Both the position numbers and the translations under genes were made by a program. Below are positions 37,200 to 37,468 of a DNA stretch of 64,000 nt, one piece after another (within the stretch, counting starts at the first letter, position 1; the number at the start of each line of letters is the position of its first letter). The notes beneath the pieces are model-generated. The model did not search any database, had not been told where the DNA came from, and saw only the letters and a list, made by a program, of their open reading frames with translations. The stretch covers positions 2,081,776-2,145,775 of the forward strand of contig NZ_CP150484.1 of assembly GCF_037997115.1 (NCBI RefSeq). The letters run 5' to 3'. This DNA comes from Amycolatopsis coloradensis. Its GTDB lineage: Bacteria; Actinomycetota; Actinomycetes; Mycobacteriales; Pseudonocardiaceae.

Positions 37200-37318
37200 C
37201 GCCTACGAGTCTGTGCTGAGGGAAGGACCCGTGGGTCCTGGCCGGCCGTCTCAGGCCGGCTGACTCCGCCTGACGCACGACGCGTCGGCTCGGTCCCCTC
37301 GTCCCTGTCCGGAAATGC
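37200..37318 (-). ncRNA. Candidate c-di-AMP (ydaO-type) riboswitch in the rpf leader
   Basis: The leftward leader of rpf has features of the ydaO-yuaA class: an upstream GAGGGGACCG element, then GGCGGAGTCAGCC, a GCCGGCC stem, GGACCCACGGGTCC hairpin, and the 3' hallmark CAGC...GACTCGTAGGCG followed by a GGGAGCGAG purine-rich segment. In Streptomyces and mycobacteria rpf genes are commonly governed by this riboswitch. Boundaries are approximate, and the CAGC-to-GACTCG junction has extra bases relative to the usual CAGCTAACTCG. Confidence 0.62.
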
Positions 37319-37452
37319 TTTCGCTCGGGGTTGGGTCCGGGAATCCGTTGGACAGGGCTCGGCGCTACGGGTTCCCGGTGTTGCGTGGTCGGTCGGGGCC
37401 AACCGAAAAGCGACGGTACGTAACGAACGGCCTGATCGGAAATTATTCGAGC

Positions 37453-37468
37453 CGTGACCTACATCACA
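37453..37468. promoter_or_regulatory. CRP-type binding site upstream of rpf
   Basis: Read leftward, TGTGATGTAGGTCACG is an almost perfect TGTGA-N6-TCACA palindrome. It lies about 275 bp upstream of the rpf start, just before an AT-rich AATAATTT that could be the -10. In M. tuberculosis rpfA is a known target of the cAMP receptor protein Rv3676. Confidence 0.72.

Follow-up and report, generated by a model that had tools for sequence, protein, structure and literature searches.

A probable relic of a c-di-AMP riboswitch, apparently kept as a pseudoknot, in the rpf leader of an Amycolatopsis genome

The rpf locus and its promoter

The window, a 64,000-nt stretch of the Amycolatopsis coloradensis genome, carries on its minus strand an rpf gene (36543 to 37178) whose 211-residue product combines an Rpf transglycosylase-like domain (PF06737, E = 1.5e-34) with a LysM domain (PF01476, E = 5e-10). 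The product's 11 closest named relatives all come from Amycolatopsis, at 94-99% identity. The leader of the gene lies on the same strand and extends from about 37406, where transcription is inferred to start, to 37179. Molybdenum cofactor genes surround rpf and a GDPD-like gene (34764 to 40613); MoaE (35905 to 36333) is assigned by Pfam, while the moaC-like and moaA-like neighbours are judged from their translations alone.

Upstream of the leader, a CRP/GlxR-type site, TGTGATGTAGGTCACG, is found on the minus strand at 37468 to 37453, exactly where a preliminary description of this DNA had placed it. Conservation of the site was read in 99 leaders, picked non-randomly, for genus coverage and mixed DisA state, from the 133 genomes that carry the 5' domain described below. 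When the best GTGAN6TCAC match in 200 nt is taken for each leader, 78 of the 99 are exact, 20 carry one mismatch and one carries two, against 0.2 exact, 6.3 one-mismatch and 47 two-mismatch matches expected per 99 leaders from mononucleotide-shuffled sequence. The genome also encodes a CRP/FNR-family protein matching seven solved sequences (E = 3e-119 to 3e-107), which we take to be mycobacterial CRP and corynebacterial GlxR. Among the 98 leaders with no more than one mismatch in the CRP site, 97 have a TANNGT hexamer at a set distance from the centre of that site, which is 42 nt in 83 leaders and 43 nt in 14. In the window this hexamer is TACCGT (37413 to 37418), a candidate -10 element, and a candidate -35 element, TTTCCG (37437 to 37442), is conserved in the alignment. 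Its fixed distance from the CRP site makes TACCGT a better candidate than the AT-rich stretch previously proposed as the -10, which was not confirmed; a sigma-70 consensus scan returned no promoter whatsoever. Both features expected of a CRP/GlxR regulon member, a GTGAN6TCAC site at a fixed promoter distance and an encoded CRP protein, are thus recognizable in the sequence, and the proposal that cAMP acts at initiation of rpf, through CRP, is well supported by the conserved site, the fixed spacing and the encoded homologue.

A further conserved block, CTCAC..GTGAATTATCTCGG...AACGGCCAGATAACGGC, lies upstream of the CRP site on the minus strand (37518 to 37580). By eye it is common to Kibdelosporangium, Actinophytocola and A. 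taiwanensis loci, and it is perhaps the site of another regulator.

Structure of the leader RNA

In order of transcription, with all features on the minus strand, the leader begins with a conserved 5' hairpin, H0, in the TCGGTTGGCCCCGACCGA region (37387 to 37406), in which four of the six drawn pairs hold. There follow the 5' strand of a helix X, CCGGGAACCCG (37368 to 37378), which faces 37337 to 37347, the 5' strand of P1, GCGCC (37361 to 37365), and the 5' strand of P2, CCCTGTCC (37350 to 37357). The loop of P2 contains the 3' strand of X, CGGATTCCCGG (37337 to 37347), located by covariation; a motif, ACCCCGAGCGAAAG (37318 to 37331), recognized by its conserved CCCCGA; and TTTCC (37311 to 37315), the 5' strand of a proposed pairing, aS, with 37193 to 37197. 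The 3' strand of P2, GGACAGGG (37303 to 37310), also located by covariation, leads into an arm (37204 to 37302), read as what is left of the c-di-AMP core, for which folding predicts three hairpins. The 3' strand of P1, GGCGC (37199 to 37203), drawn from covariation and comparison with relatives, ends a ydaO-like 3' hallmark, GACTCGTAGGCG. The likeness of GACTCGTAGGCG to that hallmark, pointed out in the preliminary description, is borne out, as its position at 37211 to 37200 matches that of the hallmark of true riboswitches in relatives. Beyond P1 lies the purine-rich 3' strand of aS, GGGAG (37193 to 37197), 14 nt before the start codon.

X, an 11-bp helix, has one strand upstream of P1 and the other in the P2 loop, and it therefore crosses both P1 and P2; in the window 10 of its 11 positions pair, the other being C-A. 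Covariation was measured in 29 of 31 non-redundant leaders of the window type, taken from 71 with the promoter block, three leaders shorter than 180 nt being left out. Over the 24 base pairs that make up X, P1 and P2, pairing reaches 96.5% (90.1 +- 0.5 after shuffling), and 15 of the 24 are changed on both sides (7/11 in X, 3/5 in P1 and 5/8 in P2) versus 3.8 after shuffling. The covariation score is 0.216 versus 0.092 +- 0.007, none of 500 shuffles reaches any of the five measures, and slid versions of the helices are only 24-48% paired. A mixed set of 38 leaders, in which two failing H0 pairs are included, gives 0.239 versus 0.116 (0/500). Covariation thus upholds the earlier claim of a structured RNA; folding energy alone does not, the single-sequence value for the leader being unremarkable (z = -0.98). 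A CCCC-GGGG pairing after P2, drawn by eye, was dropped, several leaders having no G run.

The loops of the X pseudoknot are nearly fixed in length: one is 10 nt in 25 of the 29 leaders, the one separating the P2 5' strand from the X 3' strand is 2 nt in 28, and the third spans 26-31 nt. Two crossing, covarying helices with a short fixed middle loop correspond to an H-type pseudoknot, and by geometry X and P2 would form one. The folding program does not handle crossing helices and so yields no joint score for X and P2; its values are -96.2 for P1 with P2, -94.4 for X alone and -83.0 for X with aS. A two-state switch between P1 with P2 and X with aS is possible, but coexistence of X and P2 is favoured over alternation because the loop lengths are nearly fixed.

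X is also found in 25 rpf leaders of the ydaO type (12 DisA-positive leaders of the family, nine from other families of the order and four from Micromonospora), where own strands give -21.7 versus -15.0 +- 0.74 for swapped strands (0/5000), a comparison somewhat favouring own strands since P2 was chosen partly by X strength. All 13 of these leaders from outside the family match the c-di-AMP riboswitch model RF00379 above its cut-off. X thus seems to predate the loss of DisA and to be common to true c-di-AMP riboswitches of rpf.

c-di-AMP recognition in the genome of the window

The preliminary description had suggested that the leader is a ydaO-type, c-di-AMP-binding RNA, possibly of a divergent subclass, and had proposed a covariance search. 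With Rfam release 15, no match is found in the window at the gathering threshold, and RF00379 is found neither in the leader (601 bases, E up to 10) nor in the whole genome (9.06 Mb, one contig). What the leader does match at E up to 10, namely CRISPR-DR20, P2 and mir-145, falls far under the respective gathering scores. No diadenylate cyclase (DAC) domain was found in the same 9.06-Mb contig by a search that was positive in 11 of 14 control genomes. Across a sample of the genus DAC is absent in 78 of 80 genomes and present in two, as weaker matches in long frames. These DAC-like domains, in long open frames of G444 and G450, may be non-DisA cyclases.

Measured against RF00379, to which leaders were assigned at a covariance score of at least 38 bits, the window leader has the P1 and P2 helices; it has neither the score, nor the core strands GGGGTGAA and CCGACAGCT, nor a source of c-di-AMP in its genome. 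Because the covariance match, the cyclase and the core motifs are all missing, a present-day c-di-AMP switch is unsupported, and the leader is very probably no longer one. The ydaO ancestry and the structured RNA survive from the earlier claim, the present switch does not, and 'divergent subclass' is better replaced by 'decayed after loss of the ligand'.

The leader and DisA across the family

Eighty rpf loci were collected for leader comparison. In the alignment the CRP site, the promoter block and a series of ordered blocks are common to leaders of Amycolatopsis, Prauserella, Actinokineospora, Actinophytocola, Kibdelosporangium and others, and one of 20 scanned loci, from Micromonospora, matches RF00379 at the same place in the leader. 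Contigs labelled Melainabacteria (L070) and Rhodococcus rhodnii (L065) bear rpf loci with the same leader and are probably mislabelled or misbinned.

A survey covered 150 genomes of the family of the window's genome, presumed to be Pseudonocardiaceae. RF00379 is found in 26 of them, 22 over the cut-off, under stricter filters by which weak matches may be lost. DAC is likewise found in 26, of which 21 also carry the DisA-linker, a domain tested in 37 genomes; the linker was not found in the DAC genomes G021, G029, G059, G109 and G068. The DAC matches of the first four were rejected as DisA for want of the linker; they are DAC-like domains in long open frames and may be non-DisA cyclases. The 22 genomes over the RF00379 cut-off coincide with the 21 that have full DisA, the one addition being G068, where a DAC fragment occupies a 143-residue frame, versus 418 residues in its relative G034. 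DisA loss in G068 is apparently recent. Next to this linker-less fragment the riboswitch of G068 (L215) still scores 40.8-42.2 bits, as seen in comparison with that of G034 (L216).

The rpf leader itself lies over the cut-off in 19 of the 21 DisA-positive genomes. That of G034 scores 37.7 bits in the family scan and 40.2 in a second scan, and that of G096, at 29.4 bits, is under the cut-off and has no match in the second scan. The other four matches, all below the cut-off, come from DAC-free genomes; G137 and G145 have theirs at rpf, with altered core strands, and other members of their genera keep DisA. Both DisA states occur within four genera (g25, g34, g37 and g46), in g34 by way of the G068 fragment.

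DisA-positive rpf leaders agree with the window in CRP site, promoter, P1 and the whole 5' half, and go on into a full c-di-AMP core. Because position, promoter and sequence agree, the window leader is homologous to the ydaO riboswitches. A model of the 5' domain, R1 (120 positions), was built from 38 leaders, comprising 28 of the window type, nine DisA-positive and one decaying (L109). R1 matches 133 of the 150 family genomes, spread over 44 of 46 genera, with a single match in the window's own genome; it is present in 21/21 genomes with full DisA and 112/129 without. In a sample of the order it is found in 61 of 298 genomes, ten of them outside the family with weak scores (33-42 bits). CCCCGA is invariant in the 38 aligned rows of this domain. 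A scan of the fixed stretch flags 12 of the 99 leaders, eight of which do carry CCCCGA, so that it is missing in four (G006, G037, G071 and G122). Nine secondary R1 matches were examined, eight before Rpf-domain genes, including in DisA-positive genomes, and one (L210) without a recognized rpf frame. None of the nine loci has an Rfam match; therefore the 5' domain can stand alone.

The core follows DisA closely. Searched as GGGGT[GC]A and CCGACAGCT, patterns picked by eye from DisA-positive leaders, both core strands are present in 21/21 DisA-positive leaders and 1/78 DisA-negative ones (G068), the first strand alone remaining in G028 and G040. The independent Rfam model splits the leaders as the core motifs do, except at rpf of G096 (below the cut-off). 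The arm between P2 and P1 measures 100-126 nt in 19 parsed DisA-positive leaders and 17-171 nt in 72 parsed DisA-negative ones, the P1 of G021 and G059 being doubtful. For the arm and aS, 13 of 104 leaders were unused (five paralogues, five without a parsed P1, three unparsed). In 19 of the 72 DisA-negative leaders the arm is shorter than 60 nt; the sensing arm could therefore be deleted outright with P1, P2 and X kept.

Pairing of the P2 loop with the start region

In the pairing aS, the last bases of the P2 loop face the purine-rich stretch directly after P1, before the start codon. Own pairs give -6.24 versus -5.45 +- 0.23 in the 29-leader set (12/20000 permutations) and -4.78 versus -3.52 +- 0.19 in the 72 DisA-negative leaders (0/10000); with one DisA-negative leader per genus (33 genera) the count is 20/20000. 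These permutation tests leave some relatedness in, and purine-rich and pyrimidine-rich strands pair easily. A second per-genus test, from which 8 of the 33 genera were dropped after the data had been seen, is not relied on. In the 19 DisA-positive leaders, a small group, aS was not detected (-2.13 versus -2.22 +- 0.23, 6557/10000), and it seems to be a new pairing of DisA-negative lineages.

Strength of aS varies. In the window it is weak, at -3.7 kcal/mol, with three of five pairs G-U or A-U, and it adjoins only a poor Shine-Dalgarno match. Its energy is near or above zero in several DisA-negative leaders, e.g. G038, G046 and G145. Because aS is absent or weak in DisA-negative leaders whose genera still include DisA-positive members (G025, G063, G091, G046, G079 and G145), the data suggest that it arose some time after DisA loss. 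It is also weak in G013, G023, G038 and G043, in whose sampled genera no DisA was seen.

Interpretation of the leader

The reading we prefer, at a probability of roughly two in three, is that the rpf leader is a former ydaO-class c-di-AMP riboswitch that lost its sensor and was kept as a translational pseudoknot. Its ancestry, the absence of a cyclase, the decay of the core and the covariation of X, P1, P2 and aS come directly from the computations; the remaining RNA fold appears to be rewired around the translation start. The ancestral rpf of the family would have had a promoter under CRP control and, downstream of it, a leader in which a 5' pseudoknot domain (X, P2 and P1) enclosed a c-di-AMP core. 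DisA would then have been lost in most of the family, including the Amycolatopsis of the window, and the core would have decayed or been deleted, while the promoter, the CRP site, X, P1, P2 and, nearly always, the CCCCGA motif would have stayed under selection. Many DisA-negative lineages would have gained aS, by which the last part of the P2 loop pairs with the purine-rich bases ahead of the start codon. At present cAMP-CRP would set initiation, the leader would fold into X, P2 and P1, and the pseudoknot would hold or free the ribosome-entry region and so, independently of c-di-AMP, limit or time how a dangerous wall hydrolase is translated. We infer that translation is the controlled step; it is preferred over termination because no intrinsic terminator (hairpin plus U tract) was found in the leader. 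The leader could also be conserved for RNA stability or transcription rather than translation.

That the leader still works as a divergent c-di-AMP riboswitch is very improbable. The leader does retain P1, P2, its TAGGCG 3' end and its gene context, but the genome has no cyclase, RF00379 is not matched even at E 10, core motifs are lost where DisA is lost, and the arm falls under 60 nt in more than a quarter of the DisA-negative leaders parsed (19/72). A passive remnant, which would protect the messenger or start transcription well and involve no structural regulation, would account for the ordinary folding energy (z -0.98) and for the P1/P2-like pieces that an NlpC/P60 leader also retains by eye (below); a specific fold is indicated instead by the nearly fixed loop lengths and by substitutions that compensate each other in X, P1 and P2, and this reading is distinctly unlikely. 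It is unlikely, too, that the remodelled leader is a new riboswitch sensing another ligand through the pseudoknot domain with CCCCGA. Such a sensor would fit the retention of the 5' domain in most genomes without full DisA (112/129), the invariance of CCCCGA in all 38 aligned rows and the presence of the domain before other rpf copies that have no ydaO match, even in DisA-positive genomes, and a change of ligand is a known riboswitch route according to the accessible text of PMC7266159. Yet the same domain occurs in true c-di-AMP switches, where it is maybe only a scaffold, CCCCGA is missing in 4 of 99 leaders, and the gene suggests no ligand.

A broader version, that DisA loss gave rise to a new translational class of riboswitch or pseudoknot, is doubtful. 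Its members would have lost the sensor, acquired a helix that joins the start region to the P2 loop, and read another signal through the CCCCGA domain, in most of the family and at several rpf copies in some genomes.

Comparison with known systems

SAM-II and preQ1-II riboswitches are H-type pseudoknots that engage the ribosome-binding site. With the actinobacterial rpf type of RF00379 the window leader shares the gene, the promoter layout, P1 (GCGCC/GGCGC), P2, X and the 3' end TAGGCG; it differs in the missing model match, the lost GGGGTGAA and CCGACAGCT strands, the lack of a c-di-AMP synthase in the genome, and the additional pairing of the start region with the P2 loop in the window type. 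Coupling of cAMP and c-di-AMP at an rpf gene has already been reported for Streptomyces rpfA, in the accessible part of PMC9960051. S. coelicolor rpfA likewise has a long leader and cAMP among its controls, but there c-di-AMP binding leads to premature termination, as far as the accessible parts of PMC10117811 and PMC9960051 describe it, whereas the window has neither terminator nor ligand source. The c-di-AMP riboswitch of C. glutamicum nlpC also precedes a wall hydrolase and has a GlxR site and a proposed pseudoknot between CTCC and the ribosome-binding site; that pairing is proposed for the c-di-AMP-bound state (PMC9960051, in its accessible part), whereas aS covaries in DisA-negative genomes. 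The RNA switch of Mycobacterium tuberculosis rpfB is again an rpf leader RNA without a known ligand, but it has an intrinsic terminator, according to the available text of PMC6009663; none was found in the window leader. Saccharopolyspora erythraea is a DisA-positive species (PMC11076491). In the crystallised ydaO RNA, on our own reading of the sequence printed in the accessible part of PMC5393176, the pseudoknot uses the 3' tail and another loop, unlike X. A search of the literature, in which subscription papers were mostly beyond reach, turned up no description of the X pseudoknot and none of Amycolatopsis having lost DisA.

The family offers a natural experiment on the fate of a riboswitch once its ligand disappears: genera that have the synthase and genera that lack it share this promoter and gene, and G137, G145 and G068 stand as intermediates. 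The 11-bp pseudoknot lies outside the crystallised c-di-AMP aptamer and is apparently common to true rpf riboswitches; in an actinobacterial gene for exit from dormancy it could form part of the expression platform.

A second leader in the same genome

The other c-di-AMP target seen in the family is a leader before an NlpC/P60 gene. The nearest relative of that gene in the window's own genome, at 42% identity, is also NlpC/P60, and its leader (L222, about 267 nt before the gene) has neither an Rfam match nor the core. The same promoter is present, and remnants of P1 and P2 are visible by eye; L222 is thus possibly a second relic in the same genome. Among the NlpC/P60 leaders of 25 genomes of the genus, 24 keep the promoter word, two keep one core word and none keeps two.
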